Positions 1,599 to 20,004 of a stretch of 23,316 nucleotides of DNA are shown here, one piece after another (position 1 is the stretch's first letter; each line of letters starts with the position of its first letter). Source of the DNA: a virus. The stretch lies in IMG/VR virus record IMGVR_UViG_3300008267_000623, positions 1 to 23,316 of that record, one strand, 5' to 3'. The position numbers and the translations under genes are program-made. The notes beneath the pieces were generated by a model. The model saw only the letters and a list, made by a program, of their open reading frames with translations, was not told where the DNA came from and made no database searches.

Positions 1599-2104
1599 GC
1601 GGAAATGCTTTGACATTCCGCACATGCTTGGTTCAAGTGAAGTCTGCACCAAGGAACACCTAGACAAAGGTTATTGTCCCCGTTTCTACACATCATGCGC
1701 ACTGATAGCATACGAAACTATTTACGATGGGGACAATAAATTGCACTGAGAGCGGGATTCGAACCCTGCTGACGCGTCGCGTCTGTTCCATTCATCTCAG
1801 TGTGTGTAATAAAAAATGTTTTAACAGGTGGGACTACTGATTACCCACAATACAAGGACAGACCCCTTTTCACCCACTGTCCACACAAATGATCAGTTTA
1901 TGTGTTAATAACAGGCTGGATTGTTTACCAGCAACGCCCGCAGAGATCATTCCTTTCGTGACTTCAGCGTATCCAGAGCGTTCACTACGTTGATCAGCAT
2001 CGTATGCATACGTAGAACGATGGTGGTTTTATCTCATCTGTCTGTTAAACCCTAAATAGATCTTTTCAGACCTATCTTTGGTGTCTTAGTTCCTCTCAAG
2101 AACT
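1599..2104 (-). ncRNA. Candidate large structured RNA (chain of hairpins)
   Basis: This 500-nt gene-free stretch holds at least ten short-range inverted repeats: GCGGAA(A)TG/CATTCCGC (1599-1621), CTTGGT/ACCAAG (1627-1653), TTATTGTCCCC/GGGGACAATAA (1671-1739) with inner stems, a tRNA-like fold (1745-1801), GTGGG/CCCAC (1828-1848), GGACAG/CTGTCC (1856-1882), ACACA/TGTGT (1883-1905), GCTGG/CCAGC (1915-1932), CTACGT/ACGTAG or CATCGT/ACGATG (1985-2022), ATAGATC/GACCTAT with one G-U (2056-2075) and AGTTC/GAACT (2088-2104). Flanking genes are leftward, hence the strand. No convincing gene fits; an open frame of about 50 codons around 1880-2035 has no start. Large ornate RNAs (GOLLD, ROOL) are known beside phage tRNAs, but membership is untested. 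Confidence 0.4.
1745..1801 (-). ncRNA. Minimal tRNA-like element lacking a D arm
   Basis: On the minus strand a perfect 7-bp acceptor-like stem ACTGAGA/TCTCAGT closes 43 nt that contain a T-arm-like sequence with the GTTCGAATCC signature and a GACGC/GCGTC hairpin in the anticodon position. The total is only 57 nt, too short for a cloverleaf: the D arm is replaced by about 9 nt, there is essentially no variable loop, the presumed anticodon loop lacks the invariant U33, and the T stem pairs only with a bulged A. It may be a decayed tRNA or a tRNA mimic embedded in the larger structured RNA; a functional decoding tRNA is unlikely. Confidence 0.4.
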
Positions 2105-3057: not shown

Positions 3058-3137
3058 TATAAAATACCCACCTGTTTTCCAGTCACTCACTAACTCATTG
3101 ATACACAGGGAATTATACACTTTACCAGTCACAAATC

Positions 3138-3229
3138 TACCAATTTACCAATTGACACGCGGACACGTGAGGAGATCGTCTACCTGTCCGTACATTGTCC
3201 GTATAAACTCGCAGATTGGTGAATTGGTA
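3138..3229. repeat. 15-bp inverted repeat built from ACCAAT units, with internal repeats
   Basis: TACCAATTTACCAAT (3138-3152) and ATTGGTGAATTGGTA (3215-3229) are inverted repeats, 14 of 15 positions matching and one G-U. Each arm contains two copies of ACCAAT/ATTGGT. Inside lie CGGACA (3160-3165), which can pair with either of two tandem TGTCCGTA copies (3185-3192 and 3196-3203). The symmetry and repeated half-sites suit a binding site for a dimeric protein (operator, centromere-like or origin element) or a folded RNA. No gene occupies the stretch. Confidence 0.5.
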
Positions 3230-3269
3230 AAGAAAATATCCCGCTACCCCGAGATGAGGTAGCGAGATA
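3229..3269 (-). terminator. Intrinsic terminator of the 180-residue gene
   Basis: On the minus strand, TATCTCGCTACC (3269-3258) pairs with GGTAGCGGGATA (3248-3237) over 12 bp, with one T-G pair, around a 9-nt loop, and is followed by TTTTCTTT. It starts 13 nt past the stop of 3282-3824. Confidence 0.85.
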
Positions 3270-3281
3270 TTAGTGTGTGGA

Positions 3282-3824
3282 TTACTCGAATCCGAGTTCT
3301 ACGTCAGCAGGTTGTTCTGCTTCTGCTTGTTCTAACTGATTTTCAGTTGGAACTGCAATAGATGCGTCAGCAGTAGCTGTACGAGATGCGAGTCGTGCGA
3401 AGAGTGCTTGTTTCTTCGCAATGAAGAGTTCGCGTTCCTTCTCCATTTTGAGTTTCGCATTGGTAGCAGAAGTGATTTCTCTGCTTTCGTGCTTGTAAAC
3501 TTCGGAGAATTCGAGAGAATGATTGATGCTGTTGAAGAGCACCAAGCGACCTTTACCATCGAGACTCATTTGTACGCGTTCGTCGCCACTCTTGATGCTA
3601 CCATCGCGAGTGTCTACGTAGTCCTTGGTTGTCAGAGTGCAACCGACTAAACGTGTGAGTTCACTCGCAGAAGTGTCTACGCCTTTTCTACGTAGAGAGT
3701 TGTGCGTGATACCGATTTCGATGTTCTGACCTTCGCAACTTGCACTAAACATTGCATAAGGGGTGGCGTTTGCACCGAAGAGCTGTTCTGGATTAGTCAG
3801 CTCGAGAATGAGAATTTTCTTCAT
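3282..3824 (-). CDS. Unknown 180-residue protein with acidic C-terminal tail
   Basis: Residues 1-115 look like a compact, beta-rich globular domain (alternating hydrophobic segments, e.g. IEIGITHN, GCTLTTKDYV, GRLVLFN). Residues 115-150 are a charged helix (KLKMEKERELFIAKKQALFARL), and the last 25 residues are acidic and Gln-rich, ending ELGFE. A globular domain plus flexible acidic tail with a terminal aromatic resembles single-stranded DNA-binding proteins in outline, but no OB-fold signature was recognised, so this is speculation. Codon use is more GC-rich (CGT, GCG, CTG) than neighbouring genes, which suggests high expression. Monocistronic: its own terminator, CTTTAAAT 10 nt before ATG, and a conserved hairpin element about 100 nt upstream. 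Confidence 0.7.
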   Translation of the reverse strand: MKKILILELTNPEQLFGANATPYAMFSASCEGQNIEIGITHNSLRRKGVDTSASELTRLVGCTLTTKDYVDTRDGSIKSGDERVQMSLDGKGRLVLFNSINHSLEFSEVYKHESREITSATNAKLKMEKERELFIAKKQALFARLASRTATADASIAVPTENQLEQAEAEQPADVELGFE

Positions 3825-4697: not shown

Positions 4698-4748
4698 TTA
4701 AGGTTGTCCTTTAGCGGATTGTTTTTTCATCAAGACTATTAACAGCAT
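4698..4748 (-). CDS. Possible 16-residue leader peptide
   Basis: ATG at 4748 to TAA at 4698 encodes 16 residues (MLLIVLMKKQSAKGQP), with CTCCTTAAAT 15 nt upstream. The start lies in the loop of a perfect 7-bp hairpin CAAGACT/AGTCTTG (4731-4756), and the attenuator-like hairpin of the next gene follows 15 nt past the stop. The order short peptide, hairpin, terminator-like hairpin, gene recalls translation-coupled attenuation. It could equally be a chance frame. Confidence 0.25.
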   Translation of the reverse strand: MLLIVLMKKQSAKGQP

Positions 4749-4895
4749 GAGTCTTGTCTAACCATTTAAGGAGTGATATCAACTCTCCTAAGATTAGAAT
4801 TAAAATAAATAAATGGGATTAACTATCCCAACCTTATAATAGTACTACGCCCTATATAATAGAAAGAACATTCTGTACCAGTAGGAAATAAAATA

Positions 4896-4976
4896 TCAAT
4901 CATTCTCTACAACTACTTCTAAATCAATGTCTTGCACAGCATGCTTGTTGCAGATTGAGTGTAGCACAGCATCCAT
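4896..4976 (-). CDS. Very small possible gene (26 residues)
   Basis: ATG at 4976 to TGA at 4896 gives 26 residues ending in an acidic stretch (QDIDLEVVVEND). Composition is protein-like, but there is no leader motif and an overlapping frame is also open. The AT-rich bases between it and about 4793 hold no gene, only a GGGAT/ATCCC hairpin near 4823-4837. Confidence 0.2.
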   Translation of the reverse strand: MDAVLHSICNKHAVQDIDLEVVVEND

Positions 4977-5143
4977 CTGTAGAAATACCACATTTCCCTA
5001 CAAAAATGTCTACCCACTCTTTTTTTCTGCAGAAAAATCATCACCTCTCCTCAACTACTGGGGGTACCGCGCTTCAGTTTTGAGCTAGGGGTTGCTTGAT
5101 ATAGTAGTCATCACACCCTACTCTATAAACAATTTTCATCACC

Positions 5144-6616: not shown

Positions 6617-6998
6617 GGTGAGAGATCTTCTTCCATCCTATGCGATGGAAATTGATTATTCTGTTGAAGAGGTGGAAGCTGTAACTAAGTTTTTTTATAA
6701 AACATTACGTGCTAAACTCTCTCAACTAGAAAGACCAACCATTCATGTTCATAATCTAGGTAATTTCTATATAAAAGAAAAAGCTTTAGATAGGAATATG
6801 GACTGGTGTGTACGCTATTTAGAAAAACTCAATCCTACTGATATTGGTGAATATGGAATGAGAAGAAGCGTAAAAAACAATTATGAGTTGATGAAAAATG
6901 TAAAAGATCAACTTAATGAAGAAAGAGAACGTAGAAAAGAAATAATAAAAAAGCGTTATGGCAATACGGAAAAACGTAATACAACTTTGGAAAAATAA
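6603..6998 (+). CDS. IHF/HU-like DNA-binding protein
   Basis: 131 residues from a TTG at 6603; GTG at 6618 or ATG at 6645 are alternatives, since no good ribosome-binding sequence decides. Residues 8-63 fit the IHF/HU fold: two N-terminal helices (MEIDYSVEEVEAVTKFFYKTLRAKL) followed by 'PTIHVHNLGNFYIK', the counterpart of the 'p.v.i.gfGtF.v+' strand of bacterial IHF/HU. The remaining 65 residues are a basic helical extension. IHF-like subunits next to packaging genes are a recurring feature of crAss-like phages. The likely role is bending phage DNA, perhaps during packaging or transcription. Overlaps both neighbours, so translation is coupled. Confidence 0.75.
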   Translation: MHPSKVRDLLPSYAMEIDYSVEEVEAVTKFFYKTLRAKLSQLERPTIHVHNLGNFYIKEKALDRNMDWCVRYLEKLNPTDIGEYGMRRSVKNNYELMKNVKDQLNEERERRKEIIKKRYGNTEKRNTTLEK

Positions 6999-7287
6999 GG
7001 GTCAGATTCTTGAAGGAATCACCAATTCTATTTTTAAAAAAGAAGACGTAGAAGAAATTGCATCTCAACGTATGACTATTTGTAGAAAGTGCTATCTCTA
7101 TGATATGCATGGAACAGGTTGTATGGTGCCAGGAACACATCCATGTTGTAATCAAAAAGCAGGTGGTTGTGGATGTTCTCTTTCTTTAAAAACAAGAAGT
7201 CTTTCTTCAGACTGTCCATTAAATAAATGGAAAGCAATTCTATCTGAAGAAGAAGAGAACAAGTTAAATGAAAAATTAGGATTATGA
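6958..7287 (+). CDS. Cys-rich zinc-binding protein (109 residues)
   Basis: Eight Cys lie between residues 42 and 86 (42, 45, 55, 63, 64, 71, 73, 86) with a His at 62: CRKC, a loop with HGTGC, HPCC, then GCGC, and later 'SSDCPLNKW'. The spacing suggests one or two zinc sites. The family pattern (helical N-terminus, R..iC..C, CGC.l..K.r, CP..kW) recurs in crAss-like and other Bacteroidota phages, usually close to the large terminase. Role unknown; nucleic-acid binding is plausible. Overlaps the IHF-like gene by 41 nt and the nuclease gene by an ATGA junction. Confidence 0.7.
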   Translation: MAIRKNVIQLWKNKGQILEGITNSIFKKEDVEEIASQRMTICRKCYLYDMHGTGCMVPGTHPCCNQKAGGCGCSLSLKTRSLSSDCPLNKWKAILSEEEENKLNEKLGL

Positions 7288-8129
7288 GTTTAATATTCAA
7301 ACCAGAAAATCATCAATATGTATCTATAGATGATGCTGCTATAAATTGGACTAGTGTAACTAGTTTTATATCCAATTTTAAACAACCATTTGATGCAGAT
7401 ACAATTGCTGTAAAATCTTCTAAAAATAAGAAGTCAAAATGGTATGGACTTTCTCCAGAAGAAATTAAAGAAGCATGGAAATCTGAAGCAAATAGAGCAA
7501 CAACTTTAGGTACATGGTATCATAATCAAAGAGAAGTTGATTTGTGTGGACTTGAGACAATAGAACGAGAAGGTGTAACAGTTCCTATTATTAAACCCAT
7601 TGAGGAAGAAGGAATAAAACATGCACCCGATCAAAAATTAAAAGATGGTGTCTATCCAGAACATCTTGTTTATTTAAAATCTGTAGGGCTTTGTGGTCAG
7701 TCTGATTTAGTTGAAGTGGTAAATGGTAAGGTGAATATTACAGACTACAAAACAAACAAAGAAATTAAAACTGGAAGTTATGTAAACTGGGAAGGAATAT
7801 CACAAAAAATGAATCCTCCTGTAGCACATTTAGATGATTGTAATTTAAATCATTACATTTTACAACTTAGTTTGTACATGTTTATGATATTAAAACACAA
7901 TCCTAAACTAAAACCTGGAAATCTAACAATTCATCATATTATATTTGAAGAAGCAGGTAGAGATAAGTTTGATAATCCTATTACAGCAAAAGATAGTCAT
8001 GGTAATCCTATTGTAAAGGATATAGTGATATATGATCTTCCATATTTAAAAGCTGAGATTTTAGAAATTATTAATTGGAAAAAAGAACAAGATAATGCAA
8101 CTTCCAACACTACTAGAACTTCTGCATAA
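7284..8129 (+). CDS. PD-(D/E)XK family nuclease (RecB/Cas4-like)
   Basis: 281 residues. Conserved elements of RecB-type nucleases appear in order: 'GTWYHNQ' with His at about 80 (the G..H motif before the active site), 'GQSDLVEV' with Asp 141, 'ITDYKTNK' with Asp 154 and Lys 156 (the D-x-K of the active site), and 'HYILQLSLYMFM' with Gln 194 and Tyr 198 (the QxxxY motif). Members cut double-stranded DNA ends, and phage versions recycle host DNA, process replication intermediates or act in recombination. Starts at an ATGA overlap with the zinc-binding gene. No Cys cluster of the Cas4 iron-sulphur type was seen. Family assignment is firm; the precise substrate is not known. Confidence 0.85.
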   Translation: MSLIFKPENHQYVSIDDAAINWTSVTSFISNFKQPFDADTIAVKSSKNKKSKWYGLSPEEIKEAWKSEANRATTLGTWYHNQREVDLCGLETIEREGVTVPIIKPIEEEGIKHAPDQKLKDGVYPEHLVYLKSVGLCGQSDLVEVVNGKVNITDYKTNKEIKTGSYVNWEGISQKMNPPVAHLDDCNLNHYILQLSLYMFMILKHNPKLKPGNLTIHHIIFEEAGRDKFDNPITAKDSHGNPIVKDIVIYDLPYLKAEILEIINWKKEQDNATSNTTRTSA

Positions 8130-9646: not shown

Positions 9647-11853
9647 ATTTAGCATCTTACATAGAAATTCCTACATGGGATGGTGGTGAATGGATAACCT
9701 CTGAATTTGCAACACGCGAAGATTGGAAAAACTTTGTTAGAAGTGTATTTAAAGATGAAGGTCCTAACGAAGGGTATCAATTTGATGAAACATCTTTTTT
9801 ATTTAATGAACAAGGAAGAAAGTTTCAAAAAGACGGATATTATTGTAATGCTCCTGTAAAAACTAAAGACTATATTACATATTGGAATGATCAAAAAGAT
9901 AAGTGTAGAAAGGGTGTGATATTTAAAAATAAAGACCGCGTTTGGTATTTATCTAGAGATTATTATATGTGGTTAAACTTTCTTCCTATTTACGACAAGG
10001 AAGAATCTAGATTTGATTTTGCAAAGGTGAGGGATGCTCAATATCACATGGCGTTATATGAATGTTTAGCAGAATTAGAATATAAGCACTGTCCTATTTT
10101 AAAAAAACGTCAGATTGCTTCTTCATATTTTCATGCTGCTAAACTAATTAATACGTATTGGTTTGAAGAAGGATCTGTTTTGAAAATGGGAGCTTCTTTA
10201 AAAGACTATATTAATGAGAAGGGTACGTGGAGAATGCTTAATGAATATAAAAACTTTCTAAACGAACATACTGCGTGGTATCGTCCTAACGATCCAGATA
10301 AAGTGATGACATGGCAGCAGAGAATTAAGGTGAGAATAAATGGACGAGATACATACAGAGGAAATAAATCTCTTCTTACAGGTACATCATTTGAAAAAGA
10401 TGCTACAGCTGGTGTGGGTGGTCCTTGTACTTATTTCTTTCATGAAGAGGCTGGTATTGCTCCTAAAATGGACTTAACATACGAATATATGCGTCCTGCA
10501 TTGCAATCTGGTATGATTACAACAGGTACATTTATTGCTGCTGGATCTGTGGGTGATCTTGATCAATGCGAACCATTAAAAGATTTTATTCTTAAACCTG
10601 ATTCTTATGATATGTTGGCTGTTACAACAAATCTATTAGATTCAAAAGGTACAATAGGAACAAGTGGTTTGTTTATTCCAGAACAGTGGAGTATGCCTCC
10701 GTTTATTGATCAGTATGGAAACTCAAGAGTAGAAGAAGCTTTAGAAGCAATTAAGAAAGAAAGAGAACGTTGGAAAAGAGAATTAAGTCCAGAACAGTAT
10801 CAACTACGTATTTCTCAGAAACCAACTAATATTGAAGAAGCATTTGCTTTTAGAAAGGTGAGTGTGTTTCCACAACATTTAGTTAGCAAACAAGCACAAC
10901 GTATTGATGATAAGGAATATCCGTATGAACTTTTAGATTTGGTTAGAGATGCAGAAGGAAGAATTAAAGCTGAAGAGTCTAGAAAACTACCAATAAACGA
11001 ATTTCCTATTTCTAAAAAAGCTGAAGATAAAGAAGGAGTTATAGTTGTTTGGGAAAGACCTGGTAAAGACATATCTTTTGGTACATATTACGCATCAGTT
11101 GACCCTGTTTCAGAGGGTAAGAGTACAACATCAGATTCTCTTTGTTCAATATTTATTTACAAAAATCCAGTGGAAGTCACTCAAGACGATGGAAATGGTA
11201 GAGTGAAAAGTTTTATTGAACATGATAAAATTGTAGCTAGCTGGTGTGGTAGATTTGATGATATTAATAAAACACATGAACGTCTAGAACTTCTTATAGA
11301 ATGGTATAATGCATGGACTATTGTCGAAAACAATATATCCTTGTTTATACAGTATATGATTTCTAAAAAGAAACAAAAGTATTTAGTACCAAAAGATCAG
11401 ATATTGTTTCTAAAAGACTTGGGATCAAACTCAAACGTTTACCAAACATATGGTTGGAAAAACACAGGGACATTATTTAAACAACACCTTCTATCATATG
11501 GAATACAATACCTTTCTGAAGAAATCGATCAAGAAATTGCAGAAAATGGTGACATCTATAAGACTACTTATGGCGTGGAAAGGATACCAGATCCTATGTT
11601 ACTTAAGGAAATGCAAGCATACCATGAAGGTTTAAACGTAGACCGTTTAGTGGCATTTTGTGCACTTATAGCATTTGCCAAAGTGCAGCAGTCAAATAGA
11701 GGTTATCATAAGCGAACTGAGACAAACAAAAACTTGGAAATCTCAGGAAAAAGTTATAAATTAAAATTGAACCCTTTTAAACATATTGGAAGTGGTTCTG
11801 CTTCTTCATTAGGTGCGTCTAAACCTCGTAGACCCTTTAAAAATTTTAGATGA
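9643..11853 (+). CDS. terL: Terminase large subunit (ATPase and nuclease)
   Basis: 736 residues from a GTG start in a GTGA overlap with the preceding gene. The ATPase half shows a divergent Walker A region (KKRQIASSYF, about 154-163), a Walker B motif 'TYFFHEEA' with Glu 268-269, and a motif-III-like 'TTGTFIAAGSVGD'. The nuclease half has the RNase H-like acidic set: 'ASVDP' (Asp 487), 'IVENN' (Glu 562) and 'NVDRLVAF' (Asp 667). Large terminases pump DNA into the prohead through the portal and cut the concatemer. Length and motif order fit crAss-type terminases. The Walker A lacks the usual Gly-Lys, as in other divergent phage terminases. The next gene starts in an ATGA overlap. Confidence 0.93.
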   Translation: MNLASYIEIPTWDGGEWITSEFATREDWKNFVRSVFKDEGPNEGYQFDETSFLFNEQGRKFQKDGYYCNAPVKTKDYITYWNDQKDKCRKGVIFKNKDRVWYLSRDYYMWLNFLPIYDKEESRFDFAKVRDAQYHMALYECLAELEYKHCPILKKRQIASSYFHAAKLINTYWFEEGSVLKMGASLKDYINEKGTWRMLNEYKNFLNEHTAWYRPNDPDKVMTWQQRIKVRINGRDTYRGNKSLLTGTSFEKDATAGVGGPCTYFFHEEAGIAPKMDLTYEYMRPALQSGMITTGTFIAAGSVGDLDQCEPLKDFILKPDSYDMLAVTTNLLDSKGTIGTSGLFIPEQWSMPPFIDQYGNSRVEEALEAIKKERERWKRELSPEQYQLRISQKPTNIEEAFAFRKVSVFPQHLVSKQAQRIDDKEYPYELLDLVRDAEGRIKAEESRKLPINEFPISKKAEDKEGVIVVWERPGKDISFGTYYASVDPVSEGKSTTSDSLCSIFIYKNPVEVTQDDGNGRVKSFIEHDKIVASWCGRFDDINKTHERLELLIEWYNAWTIVENNISLFIQYMISKKKQKYLVPKDQILFLKDLGSNSNVYQTYGWKNTGTLFKQHLLSYGIQYLSEEIDQEIAENGDIYKTTYGVERIPDPMLLKEMQAYHEGLNVDRLVAFCALIAFAKVQQSNRGYHKRTETNKNLEISGKSYKLKLNPFKHIGSGSASSLGASKPRRPFKNFR

Positions 11854-18265: not shown

Positions 18266-18600
18266 TATTGACATCTGCTATACTTCTAATTCTGGCTGCT
18301 ATGTTCAATGCTGTAATGGACAGCGTTGAATATGAGACAGCTTTTGAGAAGTCTGTCTTTCATAAGCTCAATCCCAAATGGTGGTGTAAATCAATCAGTT
18401 GGGAGTATGTTAAGTTCCTACCTTTCACTAAATACAGACCAGACGCATGGCATTTAGCCAAGAGCTCTATGGTGGTATGTATAGTGTTAGCAATTGTATT
18501 TAGCATAGACACTGTATATAAGCTTCCTCAATTTGTCCTTCTTGGACTTATTTGGAATATGTCATTCAACCTATTTTATAATCATATTTTTAAAAAGTAA
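18262..18600 (+). CDS. Membrane protein (112 residues), partner of the preceding gene
   Basis: Hydrophobic segments at about residues 1-19 and 69-86 (VVCIVLAIVFSIDTVY), and possibly 90-105. Between them is a Trp/Lys-rich loop ('FHKLNPKWWCKSISWEYVKF', 'KYRPDAWHLAKSSM'). The loop pattern with 'DAWHl.Ks' resembles a family of Bacteroidota phage and host membrane proteins of unknown role. Its ATGA overlap with 17879-18265 and location between two fibre modules suggests a lysis or exclusion pair, unproven. The next gene starts 3 nt after its stop. Confidence 0.6.
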   Translation: MILTSAILLILAAMFNAVMDSVEYETAFEKSVFHKLNPKWWCKSISWEYVKFLPFTKYRPDAWHLAKSSMVVCIVLAIVFSIDTVYKLPQFVLLGLIWNMSFNLFYNHIFKK

Positions 18601-18603
18601 ATC

Positions 18604-20004
18604 ATGGCAATTAAAAAATATAGAGCTCTTAGTCCTGATCCCTACATTAACAAAATTGTAGGTGATACTGAGTTTGCTAGACTTGCTCATCTTAATGACT
18701 TAGCTAATCAAGTGCAAAGTGAGATTGATGCTATTGTTCCTACTACATACACTCCAGGTTCTGTATTATTTACAGGTCCTGCTGGTGATATTTCTCAAGA
18801 TCCTACACAGCTGTATTGGAATGATGTAAATAATAGACTTGGTATTGGATTAAACACTCCAACATCAGCTTTACATGTAATTGGTGGTGCAAACGTTGCT
18901 GCACCTCTTGGTACACTTCCTATAGATTATAATACAGGTGCATTAAAGCTCCCGCAATTAATAATTGAGTCTGTTGTTAGAAATGACATGAACACTCGAC
19001 ATTTAATCAGAGCAGGGGGTTGGCATACCTCTACTTGGTTTGGTGCTGAAACTATGCTAAATTGGATTAACTCAGGAGGTTCGTCTGCCACTCAAAATGA
19101 TGCATTTGGAATTAAAGCTCTTTCAACATGTACAACATGTAATAATAATCAGGCATTTGGTGGTTGGGCATTGTTTGCTCTTACTACAGGTACTCAGAAT
19201 TGTGCATTTGGATTAGATAGCTTATGGAAACTTATTGATGGTTCTGCTAATACTGCGTATGGTTATTTGTCTGGGGAGAGTTTAACCACAGGTAGTTTTA
19301 ACACTTTTATTGGACAGCGAGCTGGTAGAGGTATCACCACAGGTAGCTATAATACAGTGTTAGGTGGTCAGGTTCAAAGCTTATCTACCACACTCGCTAA
19401 TCACATCATCATTGCAGATGGTCAAAATAATAGAAGATTTGTAGCATTCAATGATGGTAACATATTCTTGGGGGGGTCTACAACGCTTCCAACAAATGCT
19501 GGTTATAAGTTGCAAGTAGCTGGAACAGGTTATTTTGAAGGATTGCCTGCAGCTTTTGACTATACAAAAAGTGTTCTTACTATCAAGAACATGAATACTG
19601 CTGGTCAAAACACTTACGGACTTGTCACCCTTGACACAAACGTTGCATCTAGTCCTGCTGACATTAGACTTGGTACTAATCCTACTTCTCTTCGTCTTTA
19701 TGCAACAGATTTACCTGCTGCTGTAGCCACTGGTGCTGCAATTCAGATGTTTAGAAATACTGATCCTAATTTTCCTGGACAAGTGTACTTTGACTCTGGA
19801 TCTAATAATTCATCTTCTCTTATTTTCAGAACAGCTCCTGCTTCTACAACACTGACAGAAAGAATGCGTGTTAAAGCTAATGGGTCTGTTAGATATACAC
19901 CAATGACTCAACCTGCTACAGCAGAAGCTGGGGATGTTTATTATGACAGTGGAACAAACAAACTCCGTTGTTATAATGGTACTATTTGGAATGATTTATT
20001 CTAA
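18604..20004 (+). CDS. Tail-fibre/appendage protein, module 2 with YadA-like head repeats (466 residues)
   Basis: Residues 1-45 form a short attachment segment. Residues 46-95 repeat the fibre cassette seen in module 1 ('PGSVLFTGPAGDISQDP', 'RLGIGLNTPTSALHVIGG'). Residues 165-256 carry repeats of the type 'N.afG..al..ltTG..NtfiG..aG' (e.g. 'QAFGGWALFALTTG', 'GSFNTFIGQRAG', 'GSYNTVLGG'), the left-handed beta-roll of trimeric autotransporter heads. The C-terminus ends 'AGDVYYDSGTNKLRCYNGT', a common trimerisation or tip end in these fibres. Probably a homotrimer on the virion used for host recognition. Differs from module 1 in the tip, which suggests different receptors or a fibre pair. Confidence 0.75.
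   Translation: MAIKKYRALSPDPYINKIVGDTEFARLAHLNDLANQVQSEIDAIVPTTYTPGSVLFTGPAGDISQDPTQLYWNDVNNRLGIGLNTPTSALHVIGGANVAAPLGTLPIDYNTGALKLPQLIIESVVRNDMNTRHLIRAGGWHTSTWFGAETMLNWINSGGSSATQNDAFGIKALSTCTTCNNNQAFGGWALFALTTGTQNCAFGLDSLWKLIDGSANTAYGYLSGESLTTGSFNTFIGQRAGRGITTGSYNTVLGGQVQSLSTTLANHIIIADGQNNRRFVAFNDGNIFLGGSTTLPTNAGYKLQVAGTGYFEGLPAAFDYTKSVLTIKNMNTAGQNTYGLVTLDTNVASSPADIRLGTNPTSLRLYATDLPAAVATGAAIQMFRNTDPNFPGQVYFDSGSNNSSSLIFRTAPASTTLTERMRVKANGSVRYTPMTQPATAEAGDVYYDSGTNKLRCYNGTIWNDLF

Follow-up and report, generated by a model that had tools for sequence, protein, structure and literature searches.

The window, that is, the whole stretch of DNA analysed here (23,316 nt of an IMG/VR record), comes from a crAss-like phage. 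Its terminase matches those of crAss-like records at less than 60% identity, its portal protein shares 25-81% identity with the portals of large relatives, and the pair of crAss-type terminase and portal places it in the Crassvirales. Two small leftward genes, a 63-aa ORF (2323-2132) and a 36-aa lipoprotein-like ORF (1560-1450, minus strand; it resembles the ORF at the same place in the relative L003, with a blast match of 69% over 1382-1528), flank a gap of about 540 nt that holds no convincing gene and whose longest ORFs reach at most 58 aa. The first-pass annotation had described a gene-free stretch of some 500 nt between small leftward genes, and was right in both respects. It had also placed the stretch beside a tRNA and credited its stems with high local GC; the tRNA-Arg (UCU; 828-754, minus strand) is actually about 0.8-1.3 kb away, and the GC content is only mildly raised, at 0.41-0.43 against about 0.35-0.40 nearby. 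A similarity search of the stretch against the DNA of 50,697 phage records returned only a 27-nt match at chance level.

The gap is rich in perfect inverted repeats, including 11 bp at 1671-1681/1729-1739, 11 bp at 1817-1827/2115-2125 and 8 bp at 1744-1751/1795-1802. The chain of hairpins reported earlier is thus present, but as local structure it is not distinctive: in 150-nt sliding folds most of the stretch has z-scores between about 0 and -2.4, only position 1651 reaches -3.5, and stronger values occur elsewhere in the window. Compared with dinucleotide shuffles, the entire stretch has z = -2.9 on the minus strand (one of 100 shuffles equally stable) and z = -3.4 on the plus strand (none of 100). 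We rejected local minimum-energy z-scores as proof of structure, since they are too weak, and the hairpins alone are insufficient to make the case for a structured RNA. The informative element is instead a long-range helix of 11 bp that closes 287 nt. The strongest fold of the window (z = -7.2, minus strand) is found at 3080-3375, where a terminator-like stem and inverted ACCAATT/AATTGGT repeats are kept in the relative L002.

Two hairpins towards the lipoprotein gene (1802-1744 and 1739-1595) are separate from the RNA described below. The first, on the minus strand, is a tRNA-like minihelix by its sequence and fold, with an 8-bp acceptor-like stem and a T-arm (loop UUCGAAU) and without a D-arm. 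It has no ARAGORN or Rfam tRNA match and forms no D-arm cloverleaf; its interpretation as a tRNA or tmRNA is unsupported. The second, found by the inverted-repeat search, is closed by the 11 bp UUAUUGUCCCC/GGGGACAAUAA (1739-1671, minus strand). Further on, a terminator-like hairpin at 1400-1450 resembles positions 18759-18807 of L003, the end of the tmRNA gene of that phage. Such genes were seen in several crAss-like phages (L003, L004 and L005 at 18405-18760; L008 at 11258-11669), with an Rfam score of 87.5 bits in L003 and a tag peptide ending in ASIFGEVAVAA. Another relative, L007, has a Pistol ribozyme at 6877-6936 (37.6 bits, over the gathering score).

At a permissive threshold, Rfam gave one relevant family, manA (RF01745), with two adjacent minus-strand matches: the first, to the full model, covers 1905-2133 at 29.0 bits (E 9e-5), and the second reaches 20.0 bits at 1818-1902. 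Both fall below the curated gathering cut-off of 55.2 bits, and canonical manA, in 14 records of cyanophages and marine phages, scores 124-188 bits. Every other Rfam family was rejected, even at lax thresholds. Weinberg et al. (2010, PMC2864571) described the manA family, using sequences from cyanophages and marine metagenomes. A model built from 12 marine manA sequences only (R1) had its best match over 1.16 Mb, comprising the phage and 81 relative loci, within the window at 1823-1881; the match is weak (14.4 bits), with E 0.0057 in the window alone and 0.29 over the 1.16 Mb. A larger model (R3; 25 sequences, window excluded) gave a single full-length match at 1823-2119 (27.9 bits, E 6.1e-6; next best 8.0 bits, E 0.64) or, alternatively, two separate significant halves at 1910-2119 (25.0 bits) and 1823-1881 (25.3 bits). 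The R3 score of the second half, domain B, is inflated because part of the training set, the L389 group, was collected by means of a loop that the window also has; neither the Rfam nor the R1 result is affected in this way. In the joint alignment both partners vary in 43 of the 45 pairs, and none of 500 shuffles reaches the observed score; as this alignment was fitted to the model and consists mostly of marine rows, the result lends more support to the family than to the window.

Positions 2125-1811 of the minus strand thus very probably encode a manA-related RNA. The structured phage RNA postulated by the first-pass annotation therefore holds, on the minus strand, whereas its coordinates (1599-2104) cut the RNA, and the new class it had considered gives way to a divergent relative of an already described family. 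We keep the RNA outside the curated manA family, because the central multi-stem domain is missing and the score is below the cut-off. The complete reading, a highly diverged tandem manA-type RNA of a crAss-like phage together with the explanation proposed below, seems to us likely.

The whole RNA spans about 310 nt (2125-1817, minus strand) and consists of domain A (2119-1910) and domain B (1881-1823) inside an outer helix, P1. The 5' strand of P1, UGUUUUAACAG (2125-2115), pairs perfectly over 11 bp with 1827-1817, and this pairing is predicted without constraint at a probability of 0.998. Its 3' strand, CUGUUAAAACA, is followed by six U (1816-1811), so that 1827-1811 looks like a terminator. 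In the RF01745 and R3 alignments, the first core (about 2115-2081) reads GUG-GU-CGAAUAA, a hairpin GUUC/GAAC (2103-2089) and UAAG-AC, in agreement with the manA pattern GUG-aC-UGAAUAA..UAAG-Gu; the 2-bp helix is GU/AC in the window and AC/GU in cyanophages. Domain A ends, in the Rfam alignment, with hairpin A, GCUGG-UAAACAAU-CCAGC (1932-1915), which has an 8-nt loop. Next comes an 8-bp hairpin (1904-1882) whose loop carries CUGAU (1896-1892), the presumed 5' half of a pseudoknot. Hairpin B, GUGGG-UAAUCAGUAGU-CCCAC (1848-1828), lies 0 nt from P1 and would stack on it; with 5 bp and an 11-nt loop, it follows the manA loop pattern UAnnCAGnAnU. The AUCAG in this loop (1841-1837) is complementary to CUGAU in the loop 51 nt upstream, which makes a putative loop-loop pseudoknot. 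Minimum-energy folding supports P1 and not hairpin B. The central multi-stem domain of manA, with its GUGGUG/ACCA loops, was not found in the window, and the R3 alignment skips across it.

Because the window scores under 55.2 bits and canonical manA 124-188, we searched for intermediates. IMG/VR pattern scans with the manA core returned numerous marine manA together with a single outlier, L235 (IMGVR_UViG_3300040751_004890), and a scan with the loop of the 3' hairpin returned L374 (IMGVR_UViG_3300021256_000056, a 195-kb phage) and the group L387-L405. Five 207-nt pattern matches (L221, L223, L233, L234 and L245) looked coding on inspection by eye and were discarded, and most matches to the hairpin-B pattern that lack the CUGAU hairpin look coding- or chance-like and were set aside. 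The Rfam manA scores of L389 (53.2 bits), of the second copy in L235 (37.5 bits) and of L374 (19.9 bits) show that the window lies on a continuum and is not isolated. Although L374 was caught only through the hairpin-B loop, it also has the same core, a second core, the CUGAU hairpin and the U-run, and R3 matches it at 4730-5020 (19.0 bits). It shares with the window an 8-nt hairpin-A loop (UAAGCAUU against UAAACAAU), a short second core, a long P1 (12-14 bp), a U-run after P1 and the distance from core 1 to hairpin B (263 nt, compared with 269 nt in the window), whereas the sequences of its P1 and stems are unrelated and the portal protein of the window finds no match in it. L235, L383 and L386 also carry two units in tandem (in L235 by eye), with the 11-nt loop UAAUCAGUARU, a CUGAU hairpin that belongs to the first unit and a first 5' strand able to pair with the last 3' strand. 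Unlike the window, they have a full-length second unit and a tRNA-Thr about 220-240 nt downstream (222 nt), then more tRNAs, and the L235 contig also bears tail sheath and rhodopsin-like genes. The tandem layout is found again in L374 and L235, which are unrelated phages and have it next to tRNA clusters. The tRNA context invoked by the first-pass annotation is relevant through these close architectural relatives, which lie within or next to such clusters.

The putative pseudoknot is retained across this range. Among the 129 manA RNAs of the marine scan, a loop-loop complement is found in all but two, and those two carry an AUCAG loop. The partners are CUGUA/UACAG, CUGU/ACAG or AUGU/ACAU in the marine RNAs, and CUGAU/AUCAG in L374, in L235 and in the L389 group, with CUGAU inside a hairpin loop. 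The partners change in a compensatory way across the family. The 5' strand of P1 in the window can pair with CUGUUA, after hairpin A, or with CUGUUAAAACA, after hairpin B, the outer of the two partners being the one predicted at 0.998. By inspection, L235 has the same choice, GUUGAUG being able to pair with CAUCUAG or CAUCUAC. These alternative partners suggest that the window and L235 each encode one composite RNA and not two independent ones.

Some observations were made near manA in these and other phages. Just upstream of the tandem manA of L235, whose contig has a contractile tail sheath, are a gene for a rhodopsin-like protein (7258-7884, minus strand; PF01036, E 2.7e-15) and a PAS/histidine-kinase gene. 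Matches to the Glutamine riboswitch type, freshwater-2 and freshwater-1 were also seen (L205 1031-1083; L217 1225-1273; L389 3960-4028; L235 5900-5944).

Among the crAss-like records searched, the RNA stands alone. R3 found no manA-type RNA in the 81 syntenic relative loci, nor was any present in the further crAss-like records that were searched, and a scan of genome contigs gave only three manA matches, none in Bacteroidota. We rejected direct inheritance from syntenic relatives, as in the closest of them (L003-L005, 69%) the corresponding place is a gap of 250 nt that contains the neighbour RNA described below and no manA. As far as our searches show, this would be the first manA-type RNA in a crAss-like phage.

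A second conserved RNA lies one gene upstream of the manA-type RNA (2662-2363, minus strand), outside the coordinates given by the first-pass annotation, and is marked by UAAUGCAC, a CCCAAGG loop and GUGCAGAGGGG. Its elements are, in order, UAAUGCAC, a hairpin with the loop UUCCCAAGG, a second hairpin, CAGUUGUAA/UUACAACUG, whose middle varies, and GUGCAGAGGGG; CCC and GGG, both invariant, could pair as a putative pseudoknot. A dedicated model (R2) matches the window at 2359-2495 (38.5 bits, E 5.6e-9), and a pattern scan of IMG/VR gave at least 120 matches. Instances in crAss-like phages include the window, L003 (9199), L018 (2495), L038 (4963) and more than 100 others. Across 24 sequences, both partners vary in 16 of 21 pairs and 97% of cells are paired; none of 500 shuffles comes near the observed value, nor does any slide. 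The RNA was present in 20 of 26 records (18 with a single copy, two with two), a count that does not measure prevalence because many of these records were picked for the motif. Four instances gave no Rfam match, and the RNA is absent from Rfam 15; a twister ribozyme was rejected, the resemblance being limited to UAA, CCCAAG and GAGGG, with no Rfam match. Downstream ORFs begin at a median of 83 nt among the matches listed, and in L003 the RNA precedes the homologous lipoprotein gene, the place taken by the manA-type RNA in the window. This family is an unlisted class and more novel than the manA-type RNA.

The window copy carries an insert of about 170 nt in its CCCAAGG hairpin (2645-2472, minus strand). 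Such inserted domains of about 130-200 nt, with the fixed borders GTGGATATRAAGACTTC ... ATCAGYCTCCCAAGG, recur in L104 (8262), L156 and L180; in L045, an ORF at roughly this site looks GIY-YIG-like by eye. R2 also gave weak matches in cr130_1 (18.7 bits) and in Leptolyngbya phage Lbo-JY46 (18.8 bits). Another motif, ACTCTCATCC...GGGTTGCAACCTTGTGAGAGTA, was seen in L018 (2210-2400), L043, L070 (2400-2490) and others, and lies at most 450 nt upstream of the neighbour RNA in 27 of 105 cases among the matches listed.

What might the manA-type RNA do? The family has been treated as a candidate cis-regulator (PMC2864571; PMC9964418). A U-run of at least four within 14 nt after P1 occurs in 48% of 124 manA RNAs, against 5.6% in the background, which suggests that folding is coupled to termination, and the next ORF begins at a median of 42 nt. 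In the window, the ATG of the lipoprotein gene is 257 nt downstream, with other hairpins between. On computational grounds, the outer 11-bp P1 clamps the GUG..GAAUAA/UAAG core, the 3' hairpin stacked on P1 and, within the same closing helix, a shortened second unit. We propose that leftward transcription reaches this RNA after the 63-aa ORF. Upon closure, the 3' strand of P1 would run into the six U and form a terminator-like end; the fold state, perhaps set by a ligand, a protein or a tRNA, might then control read-through, first into the tRNA-like hairpin and then into the small lipoprotein gene. Since the closing helix runs into U6, we tentatively read the RNA as a leader or attenuator, a modelled role that is possible and still somewhat doubtful.

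The tRNA-like hairpin directly downstream is compatible with this reading and also with that of a stand-alone RNA of about 310 nt whose ends are closed, which would be transcribed together with tRNAs or RNAs resembling them and act in trans in translation or as a scaffold, not as a leader. P1 and U6 would terminate such an RNA, and tRNAs recur nearby: tRNA-Thr in the tandem relatives, the tRNA cluster around L374, a tRNA-Trp 274 nt downstream of manA in L391, L396, L400 and L403, a tRNA-Gly abutting the manA of S-SSM7, and, 15 nt downstream in the window, the tRNA-like hairpin itself. Yet a tRNA lies within 400 nt of only 10 of the 157 manA matches, and marine manA mostly precede an ORF by a short distance (the median of 42 nt), as published for 5' UTRs (PMC2864571), so that we consider the stand-alone role rather doubtful. 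A riboswitch proper, in which manA binds a metabolite and lets the phage sense the state of its host, fits the complex pseudoknotted fold and the original authors' rating of manA as a riboswitch candidate (PMC2864571). It is unlikely, given that manA is an orphan RNA for which the literature searched gave no report of a ligand or partner, that the neighbouring genes vary between phages, and that the missing central domain probably removes part of any pocket in the window. Equally speculative is a broader view, in which manA-type RNAs would be widespread phage RNAs whose double form, closed by an outer helix, sits in the tRNA arrays of unrelated large phages and acts in trans on tRNAs or translation, the present locus being an RNA island with a second, undescribed family.

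A decayed tRNA or tmRNA cluster that left chance hairpins could account for the minihelix at 1802-1744, with its intact T-loop, and the closest relatives (L003-L005) do have a tmRNA elsewhere, but 2125-1817 matches no tRNA or tmRNA model and keeps its manA features intact, which makes decay very unlikely. That the stretch is coding or its structure due to chance is more improbable still: ORFs of 40-58 aa overlap it and its local fold z-scores are ordinary, but it is homologous to a covarying RNA family, in which P1, hairpin B and the pseudoknot have all changed in a compensatory manner.

The reduced form in the crAss-like phage keeps P1, the GAAUAA/UAAG loop and the pseudoknotted 3' hairpin, the other parts being dispensable, and this reduced tandem manA provides minimal constructs. 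The neighbour RNA covaries strongly, is usually present in a single copy per carrier genome, and is missing from Rfam 15 despite occurring in a highly abundant order of phages.

Compared with known systems, the RNA at this locus is best modelled as a real structured RNA and a variant of manA, and not as GOLLD or ROOL. The latter are structured phage RNAs frequently found near tRNA islands, and GOLLD frequently exceeds 800 nt (PMC12286853). Membership in either, as first suggested, has in its favour a phage, a structured RNA and a tRNA context, and is practically excluded by their different folds, by the far smaller size of our RNA (about 310 nt) and by the Rfam search of 4 kb, which gave no match to either up to an E of 10. 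Canonical manA occurs in T4-like cyanophages. Like the RNA of the window, it has a closing P1 stacked on a 3' hairpin of 5 bp with an 11-nt loop, a GUG..GAAUAA/UAAG internal loop with a hairpin, a 2-bp helix, a loop-loop pseudoknot, a U-run after P1 and an intergenic position in a phage. The window differs by a P1 of 11 bp instead of 5, by two units in tandem within one outer P1, by the loss of the GUGGUG/ACCA central domain, by scores of 29 and 20 bits against 124-188, and by the phage that carries it, a member of the Crassvirales rather than a cyanophage.
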